From NCBI RefSeq assembly GCF_000025705.1, contig NC_013959.1:1231063-1295062 (forward strand): DNA of 64,000 nt, in the 5' to 3' direction. A program made the translations under genes and the position numbers. This document shows positions 2,058 to 61,046 of this stretch, piece after piece. This DNA is from Sideroxydans lithotrophicus ES-1. Lineage in GTDB: Bacteria > Pseudomonadota > Gammaproteobacteria > Burkholderiales > Gallionellaceae. The stretch's first letter is position 1. Every line of letters starts with the position of its first letter. Under the pieces are notes generated by a model. It ran no database searches, was not told the DNA's origin, and worked only from the letters and a program-made list of their open reading frames with translations.

Positions 2058-3020
2058 ATGATCCTGCCGAAGATGATCCGTGCCGGAGTATTCCTGGCAC
2101 TGGCCGCATTCGCGAACCTTGCTGCCGCCGGCAAGGATGCTTGCCCGCCGGTTGCGGTACAGCCGACGCCCGAGATGGTCCAGGCGGCCATGCACAATGC
2201 ACGCGACCACGGTTTCCTGTGGCGCATCAGCAAGGATGGCCATACTTCTTTCCTTTACGGAACCATCCATGTCGCGAAATTCGACTGGATGTTCCCCGGA
2301 CCGAGCGTGATGCAGGCGTTGCGCGCATCGGACACGGTGGCACTTGAGCTGGATATGATGGATGCCGATATCCAGCGACGCATACGCGAGGGAATGTCGG
2401 CGCTGCACAGTTCGGCGTTGCCCGAGCCATTGGTGAAACGCTTGCAGCGGCAGGCCGAACTGGTATGCGTTCCGTACGATACGCTGACCACGCTCACCCC
2501 CGAGTTTCAGATCACCACATTGACCCTGATGGCGGGACGCTGGGAGGGATTGTTCTCCTCGTATGCCATCGATGGCGTGCTGGCAGGGATCGGGCACGGG
2601 GCCAGGAAGCTGGTGGTGTCGCTGGAGACGCCGGAGGCACAGTTGCAGGTGTTGCAGATGCAAAGTCCGCAGGAGACTGTGGCATTCGTCGAGGATGGCC
2701 TGAAAGAACTGGAGGCAGGCGGCACGCAGAAGACATTCAGCCATATCGCCAGGGTATGGGCCGGTTCCGACTATGCCGACCTGTCGCGTTACGATGAGTG
2801 GTGCGATTGTCTCAATACCAGCAGCGAGCGCGAGGAGATGAAAAGACTGCTGGATGAACGCAATCCGAACCTTGCCGCGGGCATCGATACCTTGCACATG
2901 AGCGGCAAACGGGTGTTCGCCGCAGTGGGCAGTTTGCATATGTTTGGGCCATTGGGACTGCCGGCGCTGATGGAAAAACGCGGTTACCGGGTCGAACGCG
3001 TCGAGCTGAGGCCGCTTTGA
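2058..3020 (+). CDS. TraB/GumN family exported protein
   Basis: This 320-residue protein begins with a signal peptide (hydrophobic stretch about 8-24, likely cleavage after LAAA). The mature part carries hallmarks of the TraB/GumN family: SFLYGTIHVAK near the N terminus, an ALELDMMD segment, and near the C terminus GSLHMFGPLGLPALMEKRGY. Members resemble the EreA/TIKI metalloprotease-like fold, with conserved GTxH and GxxH motifs that are both visible here; bacterial functions are mostly unknown. The predicted location is periplasm or cell surface. It is monocistronic by spacing. No substrate can be inferred. Confidence 0.85.
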   Translation: MILPKMIRAGVFLALAAFANLAAAGKDACPPVAVQPTPEMVQAAMHNARDHGFLWRISKDGHTSFLYGTIHVAKFDWMFPGPSVMQALRASDTVALELDMMDADIQRRIREGMSALHSSALPEPLVKRLQRQAELVCVPYDTLTTLTPEFQITTLTLMAGRWEGLFSSYAIDGVLAGIGHGARKLVVSLETPEAQLQVLQMQSPQETVAFVEDGLKELEAGGTQKTFSHIARVWAGSDYADLSRYDEWCDCLNTSSEREEMKRLLDERNPNLAAGIDTLHMSGKRVFAAVGSLHMFGPLGLPALMEKRGYRVERVELRPL

Positions 3021-3084
3021 CATGTGCATGACCGCGGATTCCATCTAGAATCGCATCATCGCAAACCAGGATGAGGACTGAAGA

Positions 3085-3441
3085 ATGAATCTGGCTGAAT
3101 TGTTCCGTCACGAGACCGACCTGCAGGCGCTTCAAGCCGGGCAGACCCTGTTCAACGAGGGCGAAAAAGGCGAGCTGATGTATGTGCTTATCTCTGGCAC
3201 TGCCTCTATCTTCGTTCGCAACAGGCTGGTGGAGACCGCGGAGGCGGGGGCGATGATGGGCGAGATGGCGATGATCGAAGATGCGCCGCGCACGGCGACG
3301 GTGATCGCAAGGACCGATTGCATGCTGTTGCCCATCGGCCAGAAGCGTTTCAATTTTCTTGTGCAGCAGACACCCAACTTCGCCCTGCATGTGATGCGTG
3401 TGATCGCGGATCGCTTGCGCAGGGCGGACGCGTTTCTGTGA
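3085..3441 (+). CDS. Stand-alone cyclic nucleotide-binding domain protein
   Basis: The 118 residues form one cNMP-binding (Crp-type) beta-roll and nothing else: no helix-turn-helix follows. The phosphate-binding cassette is recognisable as GEMAMIEDAPRTATV, with the Glu and Arg that contact the cyclic nucleotide in CRP-like domains. GAGGA lies upstream of the ATG. The stop overlaps the GTG start of the next gene (GTGA), so the two are probably translationally coupled, and this protein may be the nucleotide-responsive partner of that uncharacterised product. Ligand identity (cAMP, cGMP or none) cannot be decided from sequence. Confidence 0.85.
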   Translation: MNLAELFRHETDLQALQAGQTLFNEGEKGELMYVLISGTASIFVRNRLVETAEAGAMMGEMAMIEDAPRTATVIARTDCMLLPIGQKRFNFLVQQTPNFALHVMRVIADRLRRADAFL

Positions 3442-23791: not shown

Positions 23792-23887
23792 GGCGGGTCT
23801 CCCCGCATTGCACTTTGGTGAACCTGGTCAGGTCCGGAAGGAAGCAGCCACAGCCAAGCGGTGCAAGTGCCGGGGGTAAGGCTCGCC
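23792..23887 (+). ncRNA. ffs: 4.5S RNA of the signal recognition particle
   Basis: The invariant SRP RNA apical core is present (GGTCAGGTCCGGAAGGAAGC, then AGCC), and the ends pair (GGCGGG at the 5' end with CTCGCC at the 3' end, one G-U). The length of about 96 bases is slightly below that of E. coli (114). It binds Ffh and targets membrane proteins co-translationally. It lies directly upstream of dnaX. Exact ends are estimated from the terminal helix. Confidence 0.92.
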
Positions 23888-23938
23888 TCCTTATTTATCG
23901 AGGGTGTCACACTCGACAGGCAGGAGGGTGTAGGGCGT

Positions 23939-42775: not shown

Positions 42776-43155
42776 TCTTCGGTATCGGCACGGATATCGT
42801 CAATGTGGCGCGCATCGAGGCGGCTTGCAATCGACATGGCGAAGCGTTCGCAGCCCGGATTTTGAGCGAAGACGAACTGGCCGAATATGCCTCGCAAGTC
42901 CATCCGGCAAGATTCCTGAGCAAACGTTTTGCTGCCAAAGAGGCATTTGCCAAGGCGACCGGGCATGGGTTGCGCCATCCGGTAAGCCTGAAGCGAATCA
43001 CGGTTACCCATGACGAACTGGGCAAACCGATGTTTCAGTTCGATGATGAATTGGCGGCTTATTTGCTACAGATGGGTGTTGCACGGCATCACCTGAGCAT
43101 CAGCGACGAACGTGACAGTGCAGTGGCATTTGTGATCCTGGAAGGGGAAGATTGA
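42772..43155 (+). CDS. acpS: Holo-[acyl-carrier-protein] synthase
   Basis: The 127 residues show the AcpS motifs [16 protein letters not shown] and [17 protein letters not shown]; the Asp and Glu are metal ligands. The enzyme transfers 4'-phosphopantetheine from CoA to acyl carrier protein. It overlaps pdxJ by 4 bases, and its TGA shares a base with the nagZ ATG. Confidence 0.96.
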
Positions 43156-44204
43156 TGGGTAATGGGCCTGTGATGCTGGATATTCTCGGTAAGACGCTTA
43201 CTGCAGAAGACGAGAGGCGCTTGCTCCATCCGCTGGTCGGTGGTGTCATCCTGTTTGCTCGTAACTACGAATCTCCCAGCCAGCTTGCCGAGTTGACGGC
43301 CAGCATCCATGCACTGCGCACGCCGCCGCTGCTTATTGCGGTGGATCACGAAGGCGGCAGGGTGCAGCGTTTCCGCGAAGGTTTTACACGCATCCCGCCG
43401 ATGCGCGAGTTGGGCAAGGTTTGGGACGATCATCCCAAACGCGCCAGGCATCTGGCGCAGCAAGCAGGTTTTGTGCTGGCTTCCGAACTGCGAGCCTGCG
43501 GCGTGGACTTCAGTTTTACTCCTGTGCTGGATGTGGATTATGGCGCAAGCGGAGTGATCGGCGACCGCGCATTCCATTCTGACCCTCAAGCCATCGCCGA
43601 GCTGGCACACAGTTTACTGCTGGGACTCAGGCAGGGGGGCATGCCAACGGTGGGCAAACATTTCCCTGGTCATGGATTCGTCAAGGCGGATTCGCATTTG
43701 GAGATACCGGTGGACGACCGCAGTTATACCGACATCGAATTGTGTGACCTCATTCCATTCCGCCAGATGGTGAACTACGGTCTCACTGCCGTGATGCCAG
43801 CCCATGTCATTTATCCCAAGGTCGATTCGCGTCCTGCTGGTTTCTCCAGCGTGTGGCTGAAAAATGTCCTGCGGGGTGAAATGGGCTTTGAAGGATGCAT
43901 CTTCAGCGACGACTTGAGCATGGAAGGAGCTACGGTGGCCGGTGGGATCGTCCAGCGTGCGGAAGCGGCATTGAATGCTGGGGCAGACATGGTGCTGGTA
44001 TGCAACAAACCTGAGTCCGCCGATGAATTATTGGCAGGACTGAAGTGGGACATGCCGGCACAAAGCAAAGCGCGTCTTGCACAGATGCACGGGCGTCCGC
44101 ACTCGCGGACACTGGTGCAGCTGCATGAAGATGCCGATTTCATCAAAGCACTGCATGAAGTGGCCGGCATCGGCATGCGCGAAGGTGAACTGCCCTTGGT
44201 ATAG
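43155..44204 (+). CDS. nagZ: Beta-N-acetylhexosaminidase NagZ
   Basis: The 349-residue family-3 glycosidase contains [20 protein letters not shown] and the catalytic loop [20 protein letters not shown], with the general-acid His in the DSH segment, and the nucleophilic Asp in [11 protein letters not shown]. NagZ cleaves GlcNAc from anhydro-muropeptides during cell-wall recycling. ATG 43155 follows GAAGGGGAAG; TTG 43152 also fits. It ends the era-recO-pdxJ-acpS-nagZ block. Confidence 0.95.
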
Positions 44205-44306: not shown

Positions 44307-45209
44307 ATGCAACAAGTGTCTCGCATGCATCATCCGTTGGAGAAAGAATTTACGCATTTGACAGTGCGCTTCGATTCTGAGAGGGGCGTGTTGTGGACCC
44401 TTCTGGATCCAAAAAACGTCCCATGTTTTAACCTTGAGCTGTTAGGACAACTGCGGTCTCATCACGATGAAATCGAGACTCAAGGGAGTCGCATGCCGGA
44501 TGTTGCTCAGGGACATGAGATTCGTTATTCTGTACTTGCTTCACTTACACCAGGAGTCTTTAATTTGGGCGGGCAGCTTGCCCTGTTCAGGGAATTGATT
44601 CGCAGCAGGAATAGGGATGCTTTGTTGCATTACGCAACAAAATGCATAGATGTGATTTATCAGCGGGTGCATCATTTTGGCTTACCGCTGGCTACAATCA
44701 CATTATTGCAGGGCGATGCCTTGGGGGGCGGATTTGAAGCTGCATTGACCAGCGACATCATCATTGCTGAACGGAGTAGTCAAATGGGTTTCCCGGAGAT
44801 TCTGTTCAACCTGTTTCCGGGGATGGGTGCATACAGTCTGGTCGCCAGAAAGGTGAATCCAAAATTCGCAGAAAAGATGATCTTGAGCGGCAAGATCTAC
44901 AGTGCCGAAGAGTTGCATGAAGCTGGATTGATAGACATCTTGGTGGAAGACGGTAAGGGAGTGGAGGCGGTTAACGATTATGTAAAAAAACAGGAACGCC
45001 GTTCAAACGGTTTTCTTGCCGTCCAGAAGGCACGCCATCGTTTTAATCCCGTAACTCAGCAAGAGTTGATGGATATAACAACCGTATGGGTCGATGCGGC
45101 ATTGAAGTTAAATGAGAAAGACCTGAAGGTGATGGATCGTTTTGTGCGTTCCCAGGAAAAGCTCTTCCTGCAGCCACAGGTCCTGCCATCAATGTCTACT
45201 GCTGCATGA
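44307..45209 (+). CDS. rpfF: DSF-family signal synthase RpfF (crotonase fold)
   Basis: The 300 residues show an RpfF-type crotonase: VPCFNLELLGQL, GVFNLGGQLALF, QGDALGGGFEAAL, QMGFPEILFNLFPGMGAYSLVARK and LMDITTVWV. The two catalytic Glu residues known from RpfF/Bcam0581 are conserved as Glu144 and Glu164. Such enzymes make cis-2-unsaturated fatty acid signals from acyl-ACP by dehydration and thioester cleavage. GAGGAG six bases before ATG 44307 fixes the start, while the frame is open from 44259. It is convergent with rpfC (4-base gap), as in Xanthomonas. The exact chain length of the signal cannot be read. Confidence 0.9.
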   Translation: MQQVSRMHHPLEKEFTHLTVRFDSERGVLWTLLDPKNVPCFNLELLGQLRSHHDEIETQGSRMPDVAQGHEIRYSVLASLTPGVFNLGGQLALFRELIRSRNRDALLHYATKCIDVIYQRVHHFGLPLATITLLQGDALGGGFEAALTSDIIIAERSSQMGFPEILFNLFPGMGAYSLVARKVNPKFAEKMILSGKIYSAEELHEAGLIDILVEDGKGVEAVNDYVKKQERRSNGFLAVQKARHRFNPVTQQELMDITTVWVDAALKLNEKDLKVMDRFVRSQEKLFLQPQVLPSMSTAA

Positions 45210-45213
45210 TCTT

Positions 45214-47727
45214 TCACACTGTGGCTTGATGAGCACCATTCAGATAATGCAATAGTGCGGCTCGTGTTTCCGGGAAGTTCTGCAGGGCCTCATCCAGCAA
45301 TCCCTTGGCCGAAGACCCCAGTTCGGCGTTGCTGATGGCCAATATCTGGGTGCAAATGGCAAACAATGCCTCTGCCCCAACGTTTCCGGAGCTGCCCTTC
45401 AAAATATGAGCCAGTTCCTTGAATGTGGAGTACTCGCGTTTGGACAGGGCAAGGCGCATCGCCTCAAGCAATTTTTCCGTTTCCAGCAGGAAGCCGTAGA
45501 GCACGGTTTGCAGGAAGTCATCCTGATCGCCTCCAAGCAACGCCAGATGGTGCAGCGTATCTTCATTGATCAATCCAGCCGAGAATTGCTCCAGGGAGTG
45601 AAATAGCTCCGGGGCATCGGTCTTGGCGGGGGTCAGCGTCAACCGTGCTACGGTGTCGAGCAGGGTCAATGCATCGACGGGCTTGGTCAGATAGGCATTG
45701 ATGTGGGCTCGTTCGCATTCCAGTTTTGCTTCCAGTGTGGCATTTGCTGTCAGGATGATCACTGGTGTGTCCAAGGGGCGCCTGGAAAGAGCGCGATGAA
45801 CCTTGACGACCTCGAGACCACCCATCTGCGGCATGTTCATATCAAGGATCAGCAGGTCATAGGTGTTCTCTTCCAGCTTGTCCAGGGCCTGTTCACCGTT
45901 TTCCACCATATCGACTTTGTGGTTGCCGTGCTTCAGTATCTTCTCGATGATCTGCTGACTGGTACCGTTGTCTTCGGCAACAAGGATGCGAACCCCGCGC
46001 TTCCCGGCGGTGCTGCGCTCATAGTGTTCCTTGAACGAGATGACACCCTCCGATGGGCGCGGTGCCATGATTCCGTGCAGTGCGTTGAACAACAATGTCT
46101 TGTCGAGCGGTGTGCGCAACAGGCAGGAATAGCCTGCATCCAGATATTCCTTTTCGCTGTGGTTGTGCAGGTCAGGGTTGATCAATATTGGCGAGACTTG
46201 TTTCAGTCCGCGCAATTCCTGGATGTTTGCAGCGAAGTCCTTGGCGGTCATGCCGATATTTTGCGGAAAGCATAGTATGGCCAGGTTGGCAGGCCGTTCA
46301 ATGTTCTTGTCGATCAGGAAAGTGAAGAAATGCGTCAGTGAAGCGGCATGTTCGCAGCGGATACCCCAGCCGGCGGTATAGTCGGTCACGGCGTGCTGCT
46401 CCTCGCGCGGCAAACCGATGGTCAGTACAAAAAGTTGTTCCAGCGTTGGTTTGGATTCGACGAGTACAGCGGCCGATTGTTTGAAGAAGGGAATCTCGAA
46501 CCAGAAAATACTGCCGATCCCTTGTTCGCTTTGCACCCCCATCTTGCCGCCCATCAACTCCACCAGTTGCTTGGAGATCGTCGTGCCCAATCCTGTCCCG
46601 CCGTAGATGCGTGTGATGTTCTGGTCGGCCTGGGTGAAACTCTCGAATATCCTGCCCTGAGCTTGGGGCGAGATGCCGATGCCCGTATCGATCACCTCGA
46701 AACGAAGCAGGGTCTGGAGATCGCCTTGTTGCAAAGTTGCGATCCTGAGTTCGACACTGCCCTTGCTGGTGAATTTGATCGCGTTCCCCACCAGGTTGAT
46801 GAGTACCTGCTGCAGATGCAGTGGATCGCCTTGCAGCATGAAGCAAGTCTCAGGCGTGAATCGAACGGACAGGCTGATCCCTTTCTTTTCGACCTGGGGC
46901 AGGAACATTTCAAGCGTGCTGTTGACCAGTTTGTGCAGATCGAAATCCGTCTTTTCGGAAACCAGTTTTCCGCTTTCGATCTTGGAAAGGTCCAGGATGT
47001 TATCGATCAATTTCAGCAGGAGATGCGCCGATTTCTTCAGCGTGGCAACCAGGTCTTTTTGTTCATCATCCAGGCGTGTGCCCAGCAACAGGTCTCCCGC
47101 GCCAATCACCCCATTGAGAGGGGTGCGCATTTCGTGGCTCATATTGGACAGGAAATCACTTTTTGCCTTGCTGGCTCGTCTAGCTTCTTCCAATGCCTGA
47201 TTAACTTGGTTGCGCAGCTTAAGTATGTATGGGGGAATCAAAATCAGAGTGAGCATCAATCCGATGGACAGACGGGGATTGGATATCCAATAGTCATTCA
47301 GAAATATGACAAGAGTGAATCCGAGAATGCTGGTTACATAAGAAGTAATGAGTGACCAGGCGCCGAATCGAATGCCATTTCCTACGATTACCCAAAGGTA
47401 AATCCCAAAAAATATCGGTCCAGTCTCCTGGGAAATAAGGATCACATACGTTGTGGCCCCCAGGTCGCAGATCATGGTCAGGAATACTCTGCGTTTTGAG
47501 ACATTCGGCTTGAACAAAACATATGCGGCAAGCAATATGGAAAATACCAAGTAGCTGCTGGCAAAAATCAATTGGCGCCTGGAAATTATTTCAGGATTGC
47601 CAAGCATTATTTCGACGAATAAATAAGTCAGTATCAAGGTTGTAAAGGCGATTCTCAGCAGAACCTGTTCATGCTCGCCATTTTTCATGCGCAACTGACG
47701 AATAAAGTGCTGGAATTTTGCCTTCAT
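45214..47727 (-). CDS. rpfC: Hybrid sensor kinase RpfC (DSF sensor)
   Basis: The 837-residue protein has about five membrane helices (21-170), with the RpfC/RpfH-like WVIVGNGIRFGAW. The kinase core follows: phospho-acceptor His198 (SHEMRTPLNGV), the N box VLINLVGNAIKFT, and the GTGLGTTIS G box. After this come a receiver domain with Asp629 (DLLILDMNMPQMGG) and a C-terminal Hpt domain with His774 (AHILKGSSGN). This is the full RpfC layout. The start at 47727 gives an ATGA overlap with rpfG and has AGG seven bases before it; ATG 47733 is the alternative. It faces rpfF and shares an operon with rpfG. Confidence 0.92.
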   Translation of the reverse strand: MKAKFQHFIRQLRMKNGEHEQVLLRIAFTTLILTYLFVEIMLGNPEIISRRQLIFASSYLVFSILLAAYVLFKPNVSKRRVFLTMICDLGATTYVILISQETGPIFFGIYLWVIVGNGIRFGAWSLITSYVTSILGFTLVIFLNDYWISNPRLSIGLMLTLILIPPYILKLRNQVNQALEEARRASKAKSDFLSNMSHEMRTPLNGVIGAGDLLLGTRLDDEQKDLVATLKKSAHLLLKLIDNILDLSKIESGKLVSEKTDFDLHKLVNSTLEMFLPQVEKKGISLSVRFTPETCFMLQGDPLHLQQVLINLVGNAIKFTSKGSVELRIATLQQGDLQTLLRFEVIDTGIGISPQAQGRIFESFTQADQNITRIYGGTGLGTTISKQLVELMGGKMGVQSEQGIGSIFWFEIPFFKQSAAVLVESKPTLEQLFVLTIGLPREEQHAVTDYTAGWGIRCEHAASLTHFFTFLIDKNIERPANLAILCFPQNIGMTAKDFAANIQELRGLKQVSPILINPDLHNHSEKEYLDAGYSCLLRTPLDKTLLFNALHGIMAPRPSEGVISFKEHYERSTAGKRGVRILVAEDNGTSQQIIEKILKHGNHKVDMVENGEQALDKLEENTYDLLILDMNMPQMGGLEVVKVHRALSRRPLDTPVIILTANATLEAKLECERAHINAYLTKPVDALTLLDTVARLTLTPAKTDAPELFHSLEQFSAGLINEDTLHHLALLGGDQDDFLQTVLYGFLLETEKLLEAMRLALSKREYSTFKELAHILKGSSGNVGAEALFAICTQILAISNAELGSSAKGLLDEALQNFPETRAALLHYLNGAHQATV

Positions 47728-48836
47728 TGCCATACCTGAACTTTCTGCGATGGAGTCGTATCCTGCAACTGCTGCTGGATCAGGCTGATCTTGCTGAATT
47801 GCAGCATGAAAGCTTCGACGCATCCCGGATCGAAGTGGGAGCCCTTGTTCGCATAGATGAACTCGACAGCATCCTGGTTTGACCAGGCTTTTTTATAGGG
47901 GCGCTCGGAAGTCAGCGCATCAAAGACGTCGGCCACTGCAACGATGCGAGCATCAAGGGGGATGGCCTTGCCCTTCAGTCCGTTGGGATAGCCGCTGCCA
48001 TCGTAGCGCTCATGGTGCGATAGCGCGATCTCGGCACCAAGGCTGATATATTTCGAGTGGCTGCTCTTGAGGATATGATAACCGATCGAGGAGTGCGTCT
48101 TCATGATCGAGAATTCCTCGTGATTGAGCTTTCCTGGTTTTAGCAGGATGTTGTCCGGGATGCCGATCTTGCCGATATCGTGCATGGGGGCAGCCATCTC
48201 TATCAGGCTGCATCGATTCTCGTCCAGCCCCATGCCCTCGGCGATCAGGCGCGAGAACTTGGCCATCCGCAACACATGATTGCCGGTGTCGGAATCGCGG
48301 TATTCGCCTGCTTTCGCCAGCCGGAACAACGTCTCCTGTTCGCGTTCGAGTATCCGCCGCGTCGCCTCGGTGACTGCCTTCTCCAGCTGTTCTGAACGAT
48401 ACAGGACTTCTTTGTGGTGCAGTTGCAACGCAAGCAGATTGCGGCAGCGTATCTGGCATTCGTAATGGTTGAAAGGCTTGGTAAGGAATTCGGAAACCCC
48501 CAAATCCAGTGCCTTATGGCGTATATCGTTGTCATTCGATACCGTGACCATAATGATGGGAACATGTTCCAGATGTGGTACACGCCGGATCGTTTTGACG
48601 ACATCCAGCCCGGACATCTCGTCCATCAGGTGATCCACGAGGATCAGATCCGGATGGTTCAATCTCAGCCAGTCGATCGCCCCCAGTGGGGAGGCGAATG
48701 CCTGAACAAATACCTCCTTCTGCAAGCTGCGAACGATCTTGTCCAGAATGATCCTGCTGGTGAATTCATCGTCAATGATCGCGATGGTCGGAAGGGATGC
48801 GGTGTTGTCGTTTTGTCCGATGATTTCGAATGGCAT
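47724..48836 (-). CDS. rpfG: Response regulator with HD-GYP domain, RpfG type
   Basis: The 370 residues comprise a receiver domain (16-135, phospho-acceptor Asp68 in LILVDHLM) and an HD-GYP c-di-GMP phosphodiesterase (about 165-355). The latter has HDIGKIGIPD with His219-Asp220, HHERYDGSGYP with the GYP at 282-284, and DARIVAVADVFDALTSERPYKKAW. Phosphorelay from RpfC Hpt would activate c-di-GMP breakdown. It precedes rpfC with a 4-base overlap on the minus strand and is divergent from zipA. Confidence 0.93.
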   Translation of the reverse strand: MPFEIIGQNDNTASLPTIAIIDDEFTSRIILDKIVRSLQKEVFVQAFASPLGAIDWLRLNHPDLILVDHLMDEMSGLDVVKTIRRVPHLEHVPIIMVTVSNDNDIRHKALDLGVSEFLTKPFNHYECQIRCRNLLALQLHHKEVLYRSEQLEKAVTEATRRILEREQETLFRLAKAGEYRDSDTGNHVLRMAKFSRLIAEGMGLDENRCSLIEMAAPMHDIGKIGIPDNILLKPGKLNHEEFSIMKTHSSIGYHILKSSHSKYISLGAEIALSHHERYDGSGYPNGLKGKAIPLDARIVAVADVFDALTSERPYKKAWSNQDAVEFIYANKGSHFDPGCVEAFMLQFSKISLIQQQLQDTTPSQKVQVWQ

Positions 48837-49108: not shown

Positions 49109-53131
<4,023 letters not shown>

Positions 53132-55963: not shown

Positions 55964-56152
55964 TGCAGGGCATCGACTGATCGCTGTCGCTGGGATGGAT
56001 GCGGGAGTCGTTGCGGCCATTCTGTTCCCGGTCATTCTGACCAGATAATGATCGGGTGGAGCAAACAGCAGCACTCCGCCAATTCCTGACTTGTGTCAAA
56101 CACTTGCGCTCGTGATAAAGTTCGGCTACTCAATGCCGTGGTTGGGGGCTCC

Positions 56153-57955
56153 GTGGAACGTACTTTGTTGCTGGTTGACGATGAGGTCGATGTTGGCGCC
56201 GCCCTGGAGCGCCTGCTCAGGCACGACGGCTACAGGATCCTGCGTGCGACCAGCGCTCTGGAAGGCCTGGAATTGCTGGAACAACACAAGGTGGGTGTGA
56301 TCATTTCGGATCAACGCATGCCCGGCATGTCCGGCGTGGAGTTCCTGACCCGGGTATATGAGCTGTATCCAGACACCATCCGGATCGTCCTGAGCGGTTC
56401 CGCCGATTTCGATTCGGTGACTGGTGCCATCAATCGCGGGGCTATATACAAATTCTTCACCAAGCCATGGGACAACGAAGCTTTGCGCGTCGATGTGATG
56501 GAGGCGTTCTGGCGTCATGAATTGGCTCAGGAGAAAGAACGCCTGTTGCAGGAGATCCAGAGTGCAAATGTGCTGTTGTCGCAGCTCAACCTGGAACTGG
56601 CGTCGGCAATGGAGCACAAGGACAGCCAGATCAAGCGTATCGCACATTACGATTCATTGACGGCGCTGCCCAATCGCCTGCTTTTCCTCGATCGTCTCGA
56701 CCAGGAGGTCGCCCGGGCGAACCGGGATGACCAGATGGTTGCCGTGCTGTCGCTCGACCTGGACCGGTTCAAGAAGGTCAACGAGTCATTCGGGCATCCT
56801 GTCGGGGATCAGTTGCTGCAAACGGTGGCCAAAAAGTTGAGCAGCCAGATACGTGCATGCGATACCGTGGCGCGCATCGCCGACGACGAATTTGCCATCG
56901 TATTGACTGGCGTGAAAGCTACGCATGCCGCCGGTGAAGTGGCACAGAAGATCCTGGATTCGTTCGCACACAGCCCCATATCGATAAGCGACAGTGAAGT
57001 TTTCATCACTTTGAGCATAGGCATCAGCATATACCCGGTAGACGGAGTGAATACGACAGCTCTGCTCAAAAGTGCGGACACGGCGTTACACCAGGCAAAA
57101 AGAGAAGGGCGCAACAACTTCCAGTACTACACCGTTCAGATGAACGCCACTTCATGGCAACGTTTGAAGCTGGAGACTGAACTGCGCCAGGCACTGGCGC
57201 GCAACGAGTTCGAGCTCCATTACCAGCCCAAGGTGGACATGGATTGCAACAAGATCGTCGGCATGGAAGCCCTGTTGCGTTGGCAAAGTGCAGAGCGGGG
57301 TCTTGTCACTCCAGCCGAGTTCATTCCGTTGCTGGAAGAGACGGGCCTGATTCTCCCGGTGGGAGAGTGGGTGTTGCGTGAAGCGTGCAAGCAGGCACGA
57401 GCCTGGCAGGATGCCGGCATCCCCGATGTGCACATCGCGGTCAACCTGTCTTCGCTGCAATTCAGGCAGCCTGATTTTGCCGGTTCTGTCCTGAAGATCA
57501 TGCAGGAGCATGGTCTGGACCCGGCAATGAATGGGATCGAGCTGGAACTGACCGAAAGTCTGTTGCTGGATAATGTGGCAAGAACGATCGATACGCTGAA
57601 TACCCTGCATGAAGCAGGTATCCGGTTTTCCATCGACGATTTTGGCACCGGTTATTCCAGCCTCAGCTATCTGAAACGTTTCCCGATAAGCAGTCTCAAG
57701 ATCGACCAGTCGTTCGTGCAAGACCTGTCCAGCAACCGGGACGACGAATCGATCGTGTCTGCCATCATCGCATTGGGGCGCAGCCTCGGTTTGAGTGTGA
57801 TCGCCGAAGGAGTGGAAACCGCAGAGCAATCGGCGCAATTGCGCCGGATGGGATGCGACGGAATGCAGGGTTACTTGTTCAGCCGTCCGGTACCCGTTGC
57901 CGAGATGACCTATCTGCTGCAAAACAGCGCGAATCTTTTTCCAGCGGGGGCCTGA
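56153..57955 (+). CDS. REC-GGDEF-EAL response regulator, probable c-di-GMP phosphodiesterase
   Basis: The 600 residues contain a receiver domain (1-120, Asp53 in IISDQRMPGM), a GGDEF domain (about 165-325) and an EAL domain (about 337-590). The GGDEF site is degenerate, ADDEF at 243-247, but the I-site RACD (234-237) is kept. The EAL domain has EALLR (370-374), NLSSLQF, ELTES, IDDFGTGYSS, LKIDQSF and AEGVET, so it looks active. GTG 56153 after GGGGG is chosen since the next gene starts with the same VERTLLLVDDE; a GTG at 56093 is rejected. It begins a five-gene signalling cluster. Confidence 0.9.
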   Translation: MERTLLLVDDEVDVGAALERLLRHDGYRILRATSALEGLELLEQHKVGVIISDQRMPGMSGVEFLTRVYELYPDTIRIVLSGSADFDSVTGAINRGAIYKFFTKPWDNEALRVDVMEAFWRHELAQEKERLLQEIQSANVLLSQLNLELASAMEHKDSQIKRIAHYDSLTALPNRLLFLDRLDQEVARANRDDQMVAVLSLDLDRFKKVNESFGHPVGDQLLQTVAKKLSSQIRACDTVARIADDEFAIVLTGVKATHAAGEVAQKILDSFAHSPISISDSEVFITLSIGISIYPVDGVNTTALLKSADTALHQAKREGRNNFQYYTVQMNATSWQRLKLETELRQALARNEFELHYQPKVDMDCNKIVGMEALLRWQSAERGLVTPAEFIPLLEETGLILPVGEWVLREACKQARAWQDAGIPDVHIAVNLSSLQFRQPDFAGSVLKIMQEHGLDPAMNGIELELTESLLLDNVARTIDTLNTLHEAGIRFSIDDFGTGYSSLSYLKRFPISSLKIDQSFVQDLSSNRDDESIVSAIIALGRSLGLSVIAEGVETAEQSAQLRRMGCDGMQGYLFSRPVPVAEMTYLLQNSANLFPAGA

Positions 57956-58770
57956 TGGAGCGCACGCTGCTGCTGGTTGATGACGAAGAGAACATCACTT
58001 CCGCGCTTGTGCGGTTGCTGCGGCGGGACGGATATTGCATCCTGCGGGCTAACAGCGGCGATGCCGGGCTGGAATTGCTGCGCCAGAACGAGGTCGGCGT
58101 GATCATTTCCGACCAGCGCATGCCCGGTATGACTGGTGTTGAGTTTCTGGGCAAGGTGCGCGACCTGTATCCGGATACGGTGCGTATCGTCCTGAGCGGT
58201 TACACCGAACTCAATTCGGTGACCGACGCCATCAATCGCGGCGCGATATACAAATTCTTCACCAAGCCATGGGAGGACGACCTGCTGCGGGCCAACGTGG
58301 AAGAGGCATTCCAGCGCTACGAGATGAAGATGGAGAATGTGCGACTGACTGCCGAACTCCAGAGGGCGAATGAAGAGCTGCTCAGTATCAATCATCAGCT
58401 AGAGCAGCGTGTCGAGGAAAAGACGCGCGAAGTGATGCGTAACCTGAGCATCCTCCAGGTGTCGCAGGAGGTGCTGGAGCATCTGCCGGTGGCGGTAATC
58501 GGCATCGGTGACGACGGCATGATCGCAATCGCCAACATGAGTGCGCACCGGATATTTACAGACGTCGGCAACAAGGCCATGGTGGGCGAAGCGGCAACCG
58601 AAGTTCTCCCGGCCGAATTGCTTGCTTGTGCCTTGGTCGGTGAATGTCGCAAGCAACAAGGCAGCTTTCCGCACGGCCCTGATGGCAAGCACGCGAATTA
58701 CTGGTGTTGCCCGATGGGCGAGATATCGCATTCGAGGGGAGTGGTTATCGTCATCGATGTCGAACCATAG
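57955..58770 (+). CDS. Response regulator with coiled coil and PAS-like C-terminus
   Basis: The 271-residue protein has a receiver (1-120, Asp53) that is strikingly similar to the one in the preceding gene. A coiled coil of about 50 residues (LTAELQRANEELLSINHQLE) follows, then a small PAS-like domain (about 165-265, VAVIGIGDDGMIAIANMSAHRI). No enzymatic or DNA-binding output is visible, so it may work as a phosphate sink, adaptor or dimer partner. Its start overlaps the previous stop (TGATG). A tandem duplication of the receiver is likely. Confidence 0.82.
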   Translation: MERTLLLVDDEENITSALVRLLRRDGYCILRANSGDAGLELLRQNEVGVIISDQRMPGMTGVEFLGKVRDLYPDTVRIVLSGYTELNSVTDAINRGAIYKFFTKPWEDDLLRANVEEAFQRYEMKMENVRLTAELQRANEELLSINHQLEQRVEEKTREVMRNLSILQVSQEVLEHLPVAVIGIGDDGMIAIANMSAHRIFTDVGNKAMVGEAATEVLPAELLACALVGECRKQQGSFPHGPDGKHANYWCCPMGEISHSRGVVIVIDVEP

Positions 58771-58835: not shown

Positions 58836-59657
58836 ATGGATAAGAGCGTAATCCTGGACAAACTGCATCAGCTACCCGCCATGCCGCTGGTGGTGAGGGA
58901 GGTGATGGACAGCTTCAGAAATGCCAATGTGGGCAGCGCCATCATGGGGCACAAGATTGCGCTCGACCAAGGGTTGAGCGCAAAAGTGCTGCGAGTGGCC
59001 AATTCCTCGTTTTATGGATTGGAGCGAGAAGTCGGATCAATACAGGATGCGGTGATGGTGCTGGGATTCGATACCGTTCGCTCGCTGGTGGTTTCGGCGG
59101 GTTTCACGCGCGCTTTTCCGCCATCCAAAGACACCTTGTTCGATCGCCATGCTTACTGGATGCGCGGCATTCGGGTAGCGACTTACACTGAGGCGCTGGC
59201 CCAATGCCTTGGAGGAGGAAGACAGCTGTCATTTACCGCCGGACTGTTCCATGATGTCGGCCAGCTCGTGCTGAGCATCTGCATCCCGGAAGCTTTCGCC
59301 GACATATTGGCGCAGCAGAAATCTTCCGGGACGGATCTGCTCGAGATAGAGCATGCTGTGCTGGGTTTTGATCATGCCGAGATCGGCGCTGACATGGCCA
59401 GGCGCTGGAACTTCCCGGCGGCGATCGAACATGGCATCCATTATTGGCGCACGCCGGAAAAGGAGCACTTCGAGCCGATCACAGCCATGGTGCACGTGGC
59501 TGTGCAGATGGAGAGCGGTCTGAGTGGGGATGCCTTGATGGGTAGCCTGCCTGAAGAGTTGATCGAACGCCTGCAGATGAGTTGGCAACGCATCGAGGCA
59601 TGTATGCCTGAGCCGGAGCAGTTGGAAGCTGTGGTCGATTTGATGCTGGAAACATAG
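58836..59657 (+). CDS. HDOD domain protein
   Basis: The 273 residues form an HDOD domain (LHQLPAMPLVVREVM, LSAKVLRVANSSFYGL, FTAGLFHDVGQLVLS, GFDHAEIGADMARRWNFP). HDOD domains resemble the HD fold but often lack a complete metal site; HD-like residues remain here in FHDVGQ. They occur in signalling and stress contexts as binding modules. No other domain is visible. Its position between a REC-PAS and a REC-HD-GYP gene suggests a signalling scaffold. Confidence 0.88.
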   Translation: MDKSVILDKLHQLPAMPLVVREVMDSFRNANVGSAIMGHKIALDQGLSAKVLRVANSSFYGLEREVGSIQDAVMVLGFDTVRSLVVSAGFTRAFPPSKDTLFDRHAYWMRGIRVATYTEALAQCLGGGRQLSFTAGLFHDVGQLVLSICIPEAFADILAQQKSSGTDLLEIEHAVLGFDHAEIGADMARRWNFPAAIEHGIHYWRTPEKEHFEPITAMVHVAVQMESGLSGDALMGSLPEELIERLQMSWQRIEACMPEPEQLEAVVDLMLET

Positions 59658-59714
59658 ATCAGCAGCCCTGCGATTATCTTTTTGTTATGTGCCAATTTTA
59701 AGATGGAAATCCTG

Positions 59715-61046
59715 ATGAGCGACATGCACGAGACAACGTCATCACCGTCCCTGGAAGGAAATACCTCAACCTTGTTGTTCGTCGACGACGAGGCCAATGT
59801 CCTGTCATCGCTGAAGCGCCTGTTCCATCCTTGCGGTTACCGCATATTGACGGCTGCAAGCGGCATGCAGGGCCTGGAGATCATGCAGCGCGAAGCTGTC
59901 GACCTGGTGATCTCGGATATGCGCATGCCGGAGATGAGCGGGGCGCAGTTTCTGGAACAGGTCAACGAACGCTGGCCGGAAACGGTGCGCATCCTGCTGA
60001 CTGGCCATGCGGAATTGACTGCAACCATCGATGCCATCAACAAGGGGCATATCTATCGCTACATAGCCAAACCTTGGGAAGACAACGACCTTGTGTTGTC
60101 CATCCGGCAGGCGTTGCATCAAAAACAACTGGAAAAGACGAATCAGGGCCTGGAAGCGCTGACGCGCAGGCAGAACGAGGAGCTGAAAGAGCTGAACGCC
60201 AACCTCGAAGAGAAGGTCAGGGCGCGCACCGAGGAAGTGCGACAGACCATGGGGTTCCTGGAAGTGGCCAACGAGAAACTCAAGCAGGGCTTCATCACTT
60301 CGATCCGGGTCTTCTCCAACCTGATCGAGATGCGCGAAGGCGCCTTGGCTGGGCACTCGCAACGGGTCGCCGAACTGTCCAGAAAGATCGCCCAGAAGAT
60401 GGGATTGAAGGAGGCGGAGGCCCAGGATGTGTTTCTCGCGGCGTTATTGCACGATGTCGGCAAGATCGGCCTGCCGGACTACCTGCTGGAAAAACCGTTC
60501 GCCAGCCTGAGCAGCGAAGAACGGTTGGAGGTGAGCAAGCATCCAATCAAGGGGCAGGCTGCGCTGATGGCGCTGGAGCAGTTGAATGGCGCGGCCAAGC
60601 TGATACGCAGTCATCATGAGCGTTTCGATGGGCTGGGGTATCCCGACAGGTTGCAAGGACTGGAGATTCCCTTGGGTGCGCGGATCATCGCGCTTGCCAA
60701 CGAATATGATGCGGCGCAGATCGGCATGCTGTTGAGCAAGCGACTGAAGCAGGCCGATGCCCTGCTGTTCATCCAGGAAGGGCGGGGGGTACGCTACGAT
60801 CCGGCGGTGGCGGACGCTTTCATGAGCGTGATGAGGTCGGTCAGCAAGGCAGATACACATGTTGTGGAACTGGCACTTCATCTGGAACAGATCCGGCCCG
60901 GGATGATGCTGTCACGAGATCTGACGACCAGGCAAGGCGATCTGTTGCTGTCCAGGGAGCACGTGCTGGACACTCCCCTGATCGAGCAGATCAGGAGTTT
61001 CGAGTATCTCGGAGAAAAACTGACCATCTATGTCTATGACAAATAG
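59715..61046 (+). CDS. Response regulator with HD-GYP c-di-GMP phosphodiesterase domain
   Basis: The 443 residues contain a receiver domain (about 18-135, Asp68 in LVISDMRMPEMS), a coiled coil (about 135-180) and an HD-GYP domain with HDVGKIGLPD (His246-Asp247) and HHERFDGLGYP (GYP 308-310). All HD-GYP metal residues seem present, so it is probably an active phosphodiesterase. ATG 59715 is taken with GGAA just upstream; ATG 59703 and TTG 59682 are alternatives. The next gene, a hemerythrin kinase, is a plausible phosphodonor. Confidence 0.9.
   Translation: MSDMHETTSSPSLEGNTSTLLFVDDEANVLSSLKRLFHPCGYRILTAASGMQGLEIMQREAVDLVISDMRMPEMSGAQFLEQVNERWPETVRILLTGHAELTATIDAINKGHIYRYIAKPWEDNDLVLSIRQALHQKQLEKTNQGLEALTRRQNEELKELNANLEEKVRARTEEVRQTMGFLEVANEKLKQGFITSIRVFSNLIEMREGALAGHSQRVAELSRKIAQKMGLKEAEAQDVFLAALLHDVGKIGLPDYLLEKPFASLSSEERLEVSKHPIKGQAALMALEQLNGAAKLIRSHHERFDGLGYPDRLQGLEIPLGARIIALANEYDAAQIGMLLSKRLKQADALLFIQEGRGVRYDPAVADAFMSVMRSVSKADTHVVELALHLEQIRPGMMLSRDLTTRQGDLLLSREHVLDTPLIEQIRSFEYLGEKLTIYVYDK

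Follow-up and report, generated by a model that had tools for sequence, protein, structure and literature searches.

A predicted DSF-to-c-di-GMP module with two allelic types of RpfF and RpfC in Sideroxydans lithotrophicus ES-1 and its relatives

In Xanthomonas campestris, the diffusible signal factor (DSF) module consists of the synthase RpfF, the hybrid sensor kinase RpfC (membrane head, HK, REC and Hpt domains) and the regulator RpfG (REC-HD-GYP), with rpfF in convergent orientation (PMC4504480; this and the other articles given by PMC number are cited for the portions of their text available to us). The same parts and layout are shared by a locus of Sideroxydans lithotrophicus ES-1, which lies in the 64,000-nucleotide stretch of contig NC_013959.1 analyzed here (positions 1,231,063 to 1,295,062 of assembly GCF_000025705.1; hereafter the window). 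The genome is a single contig of 3,003,656 bases. Unlike the X. campestris module, the window locus has no rpfH and no rpfB beside rpfF, and its RpfC carries an extra pseudo-receiver. The sensor residues R15, D17 and S18 of X. campestris pv. campestris (Xcc; numbering of PMC5391125) are also replaced in the window, by M, N and G, respectively.

Mutagenesis of DSF recognition by RpfC has implicated the N-terminal 22 residues in Xcc (PMC5391125) and points to helices IV and V in Pseudomonas aeruginosa PA1396 (PMC6536496). In the portions of the literature available to us, DSF recognition by RpfC and product choice by RpfF so far rest on such single-species mutagenesis. The natural swaps described here point to two bounded segments and provide closely related pairs for comparison, sister species being 77-95% identical elsewhere in the locus and about 50-70% inside the segments. 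Judging from sequence comparison, the locus is probably a module leading from DSF to cyclic di-GMP (c-di-GMP), in which the front of RpfF and the head of RpfC form a matched two-piece cartridge that is exchanged as a pair.

Two allelic types and two tracts

In the genus of the window genome, nagZ and zipA flank the rpf module, a cassette of 4.9 kb. RpfF is encoded in 14 of 34 genomes of the genus, 12 of which carry the full module between nagZ and zipA, while in G081 and G097 RpfF lies at another place; G107 has rpfG adjoining zipA, at a contig end. Twenty-two genomes lack a complete module at the site, and the 15 of these that were examined all have a nagZ-zipA gap of 41-225 bp; the gap is 4,897-4,923 bp in the four module-bearing genomes measured. 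As species marker we used a tree of eight flanking proteins (an rpoB match was found in 24 of the 34 genomes). In this tree the rpf-less G050 and G042 are placed among rpf-bearing genomes, and losses or repeated gains of the module have therefore occurred.

Comparison of the 12 complete modules at the nagZ-zipA site separates two allelic types: type A, in the window and L001, L002 and L003 (four genomes), and type B, in L004-L007, L009, L010, L134 and L135 (eight genomes). Relative to the window, RpfF residues 1-70 are 68-71% identical in type A and 33-46% in type B, RpfF residues 71-210 are 90-91 and 79-82% identical, and the RpfC heads are 77-80 and 46-50% identical, respectively, whereas the ranges overlap in the remaining parts (RpfF residues 211-300, A 84-92% and B 86-93%; HK, A 86-89% and B 85-88%). 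Type B heads are no nearer to the window than the heads of L008, L138 and L139, from other genera, and L144, a congener with its module elsewhere (47-50%). At the DNA level, the sisters L003 (A) and L135 (B) are 48 and 62% identical over the first 400 bp of rpfF, 77-94% across the rpfF back, Hpt, REC, pseudo-REC and most of HK, then 72, 60 and 48% through the rpfC head, and 81-95% in rpfG. The pair L002/L009 shows the same drops, as does L001/L007 on a noisier background (60-92% outside).

The boundaries of the tracts follow from type-separating columns, defined as those with no residue common to A and B. RpfF has 37 such columns among 300, none past residue 158 and 29 of them in residues 1-80; RpfC has 61 among the 836 examined, none past residue 184; and RpfG has none in 370. 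The two tracts are thus separated by 652 examined RpfC residues with zero type-separating columns. To avoid groups picked by eye, all 2035 bipartitions of the 12 genomes with at least two per side were counted, and the A/B split ranks first both for RpfF 1-160 (37 columns, runner-up 11) and for RpfC 1-185 (61 columns, runner-up 16). The same split yields no columns in RpfF 161-300, RpfC 186-836, RpfG, nagZ, ligA, era or recO, and two in zipA. The types of tract 1 and tract 2 agree in 12 of 12 genomes.

Within the RpfC head, the equivalent of Xcc D17 (RpfC residue 16) separates the types: type A carries N, S or K there, and the listed type B sequences carry E. Xcc E19 and Q22 are retained in both types. 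Across 75 RpfC heads (duplicates L136 and L137 included), E19 is kept in 68, Q22 in 71, D17 as D in 35 and S18 as S in 27. Because the other 60 separating RpfC columns lie elsewhere in the head, type is more likely read by the head helices, which agrees with the role of helices IV-V in PA1396 (PMC6536496).

The history of the tracts is distinct from that of the species. In the flank tree, L003 (A) is sister to L135 (B), supported at 100/100, while support for joining L002 (A) to L009 (B) is 83/78; forcing type A together costs 656 log units (approximately unbiased test, p = 4e-55), and at least three changes of type A are required. Type A is a single clade in whole RpfF (100/99) and in the RpfC head (100/100). 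Such a clade is rejected for the RpfC core (p = 3e-5), Hpt (p = 2e-6) and RpfG (p = 1e-34), and is neither held nor rejected for RpfF from residue 211 on (p = 0.135). The simplest account would be that the two tracts travel, or persist as old alleles, together, and that the rest stays with the species.

Interpretation and competing explanations

By homology, RpfF would convert 3-hydroxyacyl-acyl carrier protein to a free cis-2-unsaturated fatty acid (PMC4504480), which the membrane head of RpfC would sense; phosphate would pass from H198 through D629 and H774 to D68 of RpfG, and phosphorylated RpfG would degrade c-di-GMP. Since 10:0 3OH is among the major fatty acids reported for S. lithotrophicus (PMC3770913), the RpfF product might, as a weak prediction, be of the cis-2-decenoic type. 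The parts, their catalytic motifs, linkage and conservation are read directly from the sequence, while each of these predicted reactions is carried over from homologues. DSF-type control of c-di-GMP, which an earlier note on this DNA had proposed, is in this conditional form still the best reading of the anatomy. Under the cartridge reading, alleles A and B would be exchanged or kept across species, with the kinase core, pseudo-receiver, receiver, Hpt and RpfG following the species. The likeliest reason for the matching would be that tract 1 determines the signal produced, or the manner of its release, and tract 2 the signal that is heard, so that mismatched pairs would be purged.

In our estimate the chances are evenly balanced that freshwater iron-oxidizers have at least two DSF "dialects," a polymorphism predating the species and written in about 150 residues of RpfF and about 180 of the RpfC head, which are replaced together. 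The dialect pieces would lie about 2.4 kb apart on opposite strands, and both dialects would share RpfF's catalytic back and the entire phosphorelay. If true, the RpfF front and RpfC head would be the determinants, within the DSF family, of what the signal is and how it is recognized. The variable regions of agr and comQXPA are analogous determinants for peptide signals. If the matching holds, DSF dialects would also occur in a group for which the literature search turned up no DSF work: no article pairing Sideroxydans with rpfC or "diffusible signal factor" was found, Gallionella is named solely in a reference within the literature matching rpfF and Gallionella, and the main text of the ES-1 genome paper contains neither "quorum" nor "diffusible." Among the matches listed for RpfF/RpfC alleles or coevolution, the titles hold nothing beyond work on Xanthomonas, Stenotrophomonas and Pseudomonas and general reviews.

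Several observations weigh against a DSF cartridge of this kind. RpfF scores 242.8 bits on the NCBIfam RpfF equivalog NF053515, under the 550-bit cut-off, and, of the Xcc sensor residues, S18 corresponds to Gly in types A and B alike, and the window has a different residue at R15. A mirror-tree analysis across the class covered 49 loci with RpfF, RpfC and RpfG, leaving out L136 and L137, which duplicate L009 and L004; of the 1176 pairs, 946 could be used. The partial correlation between the RpfF N-terminus and the RpfC head is -0.00 with all other parts held and 0.22 holding only HK, REC and the RpfG HD, while that between the RpfF N-terminus and Hpt is 0.43; these 49 loci give no special coupling of RpfF N-terminus and head at class range. 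Pairs from other genera lend little support or speak against it: L146/L228 show a sharp head drop with a mild rpfF drop, L140/L143 show a fall in rpfF (their head lies beyond the contig), L145/L227 are without the two-tract pattern, and in L138/L142 the head is conserved (77-78%; HK 87-88%) and the RpfF front diverged (61%). Since there are only 12 complete genomes and at least three switches, the pairing is also statistically weak by itself.

The tracts may instead co-evolve as a protein-protein interface, with the RpfF front touching the RpfC head or the adjacent membrane, rather than as maker and hearer of a signal. RpfC controls RpfF through binding, the complex of RpfF with the RpfC REC has been solved (3m6m) and its REC is the closest to that of the window, and deleting the whole RpfC input domain in Xcc largely lifts the inhibition of DSF synthesis (PMC5391125). 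However, the known RpfF contact is the REC domain, which has no A/B-separating columns, and we regard an interface of this kind as rather unlikely. We give somewhat less credence to an account without functional matching, in which the A and B tracts were co-imported in one module and the middle was later overwritten by local recombination. Neither the RpfC core nor Hpt, RpfG or the flanks cluster by type, as overwriting predicts, and identity drops at similar places across sister pairs, but overwriting would have been needed at least three times, each time keeping both ends and losing the middle, and there are no mismatched genomes among the 12. Finally, the locus could be an ordinary Xanthomonas-kind module with species divergence only, the types being assembly chimeras or alignment artefacts; the nine relatives in the comparison with named records (L001-L007, L009 and L010), which include Sideroxydans, Sideroxyarcus and Gallionellaceae records, are indeed metagenome assemblies by title. 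Assembly chimerism is nonetheless unlikely because the window genome (A) and G054 and G066 (B) are one contig each, and the pattern is repeated across four type A and eight type B genomes; this explanation is already contradicted and retains next to no probability.

The RpfC pseudo-receiver, the RpfF family and locus anatomy

Between HATPase and REC, the window RpfC contains a stretch of about 150 residues which by itself has no match in Pfam or NCBIfam even at E 10. A profile built from 69 of these stretches, among them the duplicates L136 and L137, aligns by hhalign with RpfC receivers at 97.8% probability and with RpfG receivers at 97.2%, and has no match to Hpt, HK or the membrane head. 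The AlphaFold2 model alternates strand and helix in receiver order, with a predicted local distance difference test score of 75, and Foldseek returned 62 matches at E <= 0.001, of which the best 50 are mostly named receivers or response regulators. From its residues in the hhalign alignment, the degeneracy of this pseudo-receiver is clear in the window, where Gly-Leu replaces the acidic pair, Phe the phospho-acceptor Asp, Asn the Thr and Thr the Lys. It is graded in other RpfCs, given that among the 69 the acceptor position is Asp in 30 and Glu in 9, and the second position of the acidic pair is an acid (Asp) in 7. An N-A-L-H stretch is mostly kept (N in 63, A in 57, L in 58, H in 59). Scored as present where the HK-REC gap is at least 130 residues and as absent where it is under 40, the pseudo-receiver is present in 46 of 52 RpfCs of a genome draw from the class and, once duplicates are removed, in all 20 of the family set; it is absent in 6 of 52, including both members of family f15; the textbook RpfC layout is thus the exception in the class draw.

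The order HK, degenerate REC, REC is known in GacS/BarA, RcsC and ShkA, where the degenerate receiver lies between HATPase and REC as it does in the window RpfC (PMC7010744). No literature on an RpfC with such a pseudo-receiver was found, and the one match, judging by its abstract, concerns other kinases. The pseudo-receiver might bind c-di-GMP like Rec1 of ShkA, in which case RpfC would read both the external signal and its own output; the domain order is the same, and the second-best solved relative of whole RpfC is 6qrj, a "Hybrid kinase" (8e-60), which we take to be ShkA. The published ShkA residue numbers fit the 6qrj sequence, the Foldseek matches of the pseudo-receiver include 6qrl (Rec1 of ShkA with c-di-GMP), and degenerate receivers have been proposed as ligand sites (PMC7010744). 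Yet the c-di-GMP contact residues of ShkA are not conserved in the window RpfC, where His, Leu and Asp stand opposite R324, Y338 and R344 (our own mapping, with residues numbered as in PMC7010744). With these equivalents absent, c-di-GMP binding of the ShkA pattern was rejected, and a feedback of this sort is, in our judgment, distinctly improbable.

The placement of RpfF was judged from score gaps to ordinary crotonases. It scores 395.7 bits on NF006452 (crotonase family PRK08788, cut-off 177), and the next-best NCBIfam model after this one and NF053515 reaches 71.5 bits. Its best solved chains are 6dgn, 5fus, 7zq7 and 3m6m at E <= 1e-55, followed by the next crotonase at 1.8e-14; 6dgn and 3m6m are named RpfF, and 5fus and 7zq7, named enoyl-CoA hydratase / crotonase family protein, align to the window RpfF much as the two named RpfFs do. 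We presume 6dgn and 5fus to be Burkholderia RpfF. On these comparisons, the window protein appears nearer to RpfF than to other crotonases, a putative DSF synthase in the wide sense.

In the class draw, the RpfF model is matched at E <= 1e-30 in 67 of 369 genomes and the NF053515 cut-off is passed by 1 of 369, and this cut-off therefore marks a narrow clade; the window RpfF is not assigned to this equivalog. Family f15 is called Xanthomonadaceae-type here because it includes this sole genome. Across the 67 places (own locus excluded), a convergent RpfC lies beside RpfF in 48, an RpfC-like kinase is otherwise arranged in 9, there is none despite room in 5, and the contig is too short in 5; in 24 of the 48, rpfG lies next to this rpfC (in 23 of the 39 having room). 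In the family of the window genome, RpfF occurs in 26 of 150 genomes, the window genome included, and the convergent synteny with rpfC is present in all 26, more than chance would give. At L073 and L074, rpfF is followed by a co-directional REC-GAF-GGDEF-EAL gene and then an RpfC-like kinase (domains scanned in L073), a one-direction variant of the rpf cluster. L111 has an additional open reading frame between rpfG and rpfC (2292-3437, + strand), whose N-terminal half, a membrane head of RpfC type that shares 41% identity over 188 residues with the head of the neighboring RpfC, is fused to GGDEF; it could possibly be a DSF-sensing diguanylate cyclase in the rpfH position.

The coordinates (Table 1) bear out the Xanthomonas-type convergence of rpfF with an rpfG-rpfC operon described in the earlier note. 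The stops of rpfF and rpfC are 4 bp apart, and the rpfG stop and likely rpfC start share an ATGA overlap. RpfC residue numbers count from the start at 47727; a longer open reading frame beginning at 47823, within rpfG, is probably unused, since the proteins of relatives align from 47727. RpfF, with ECH_1 above the Pfam cut-off, has both catalytic glutamates, as had been claimed. RpfG has REC and HD_5 above the cut-off together with HD and GYP motifs, and RpfC, located in the rpf locus, joins a membrane head to HK, REC and Hpt, with HisKA, HATPase, REC and Hpt each above the cut-off. The five N-terminal helices ascribed to RpfC are not borne out by the AlphaFold2 model of the head, which has an N-terminal helix and then six long helices; the accepted topology of five helices may thus be inapplicable here. 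Foldseek gave no match to the head at E <= 0.001. The reported absence of rpfB is true beside rpfF; a FadD-like acyl-CoA ligase is encoded elsewhere in the genome (G000:C1:1889959-1891176), and rpfB may sit away from rpfF, as in Xylella (PMC4504480). That earlier reading of the locus is partly supported, with parts, convergence and family assignment right, and it overlooked the RpfC pseudo-receiver, as well as the fact that the locus is a cassette with allelic polymorphism in two tracts.

Table 1. Features of the rpf cassette and its flanks, in window positions.
Feature	Position	Strand	Details
rpfF, DSF-type synthase, crotonase fold, 300 aa	44307..45209	+	E144 and E164 present
rpfC, hybrid sensor kinase, 837 aa counted from 47727	45214..47727 (start alternatively 47733)	-	ATG overlaps rpfG stop
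rpfG, REC and HD-GYP c-di-GMP phosphodiesterase (predicted)	47724..48836	-	D68, HD 219, GYP 282
RpfC HisKA and HATPase	46486..47166	-	H198
RpfC pseudo-REC between HATPase and REC (aa ~423-563)	46039..46461	-	hhalign, AlphaFold2, Foldseek
RpfC receiver	45649..45987	-	D629; nearest solved chain 3m6m_D
RpfC Hpt	45337..45492	-	H774
Allelic tract 1, RpfF residues ~2-158	44310..44780	+	A/B-separating columns
Allelic tract 2, RpfC membrane head, residues ~7-184	47176..47709	-	A/B-separating columns
nagZ, left flank of the cassette	43152..44204	+	
zipA, right flank of the cassette	49109..50161	+	

Further along the window, a cluster of c-di-GMP regulators begins at 56093, with a REC-GGDEF-EAL protein (56093-57955), a REC protein (57853-58770), an HDOD protein (58836-59657) and a NosR-family REC-HD-GYP protein above its NCBIfam cut-off (59682-61046). 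Two further HD_5 matches lie within 15 kb past the window (G000:C1:1299087 and 1305906), and the 3.0-Mb genome has 15 in all. RpfG is therefore one of many proteins of HD-GYP type, and an effect of DSF on c-di-GMP may be local. The sole Rfam match above gathering score in the window is a bacterial small signal recognition particle RNA (RF00169) at 23792-23890.

Comparison with known systems

The bare presence of the module is ordinary, because clusters in Thiobacillus and Methylobacillus are already on record (PMC4504480). As in the window, an rpfF-rpfG-rpfC set occurs outside the xanthomonads in Thiobacillus, Methylobacillus, Methylophaga and Leptospirillum (PMC4504480, PMC8357829), although the Leptospirillum clusters are one-directional, unlike the convergent window locus (PMC8357829). 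The portions of these two articles available to us make no mention of allelic types in the four genera. The Burkholderia RpfF/RpfR system, based on the Burkholderia diffusible signal factor (BDSF), has an RpfF of the same enzyme family (6dgn, 5fus) as that of the window; its partner RpfR is a PAS-GGDEF-EAL protein convergent with rpfF, whereas the window partners are RpfC and RpfG (PMC4504480).

The precedent for matched rpf variants is Stenotrophomonas maltophilia, in which the rpf-1 and rpf-2 variants of RpfF and RpfC occur in fixed association and differ most at their N-termini, as here (PMC4517397, PMC5928129); the same fixed association and N-terminal difference were found in all 12 genomes of the window genus. 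The RpfC heads of the S. maltophilia variants have 10 versus 5 membrane segments, unlike those of the window genus. For comparison we turned to genus g181 of family f15, with 41 genomes searched; of two other genera, that of G270, comprising 3 genomes, was too small for another such comparison, and that of G098 has RpfF in 3 of 41 searched. RpfF identity in g181 is bimodal, at 90-100% in 10 of 35 and 50-54% in 25 of 35, and 21 of the 35 loci were examined against one reference (9 of one type and 12 of the other). Within this genus, at L067 and L236-L255, RpfC ranges from 744 to 928 residues in stop-to-stop frames, a spread consistent with heads having single and doubled membrane segments.

Between the g181 types, the rpfF front is 42-44% and the back 54-58% identical, and the rpfC head 64-76%, HK 65-72% and REC-Hpt 60-66%, while rpfG is 79-98% identical with no separating columns. 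This pattern agrees with what is published on the S. maltophilia variants. Since the g181 types differ throughout rpfF and rpfC, the Gallionellaceae case narrows down which parts co-vary, to two segments.

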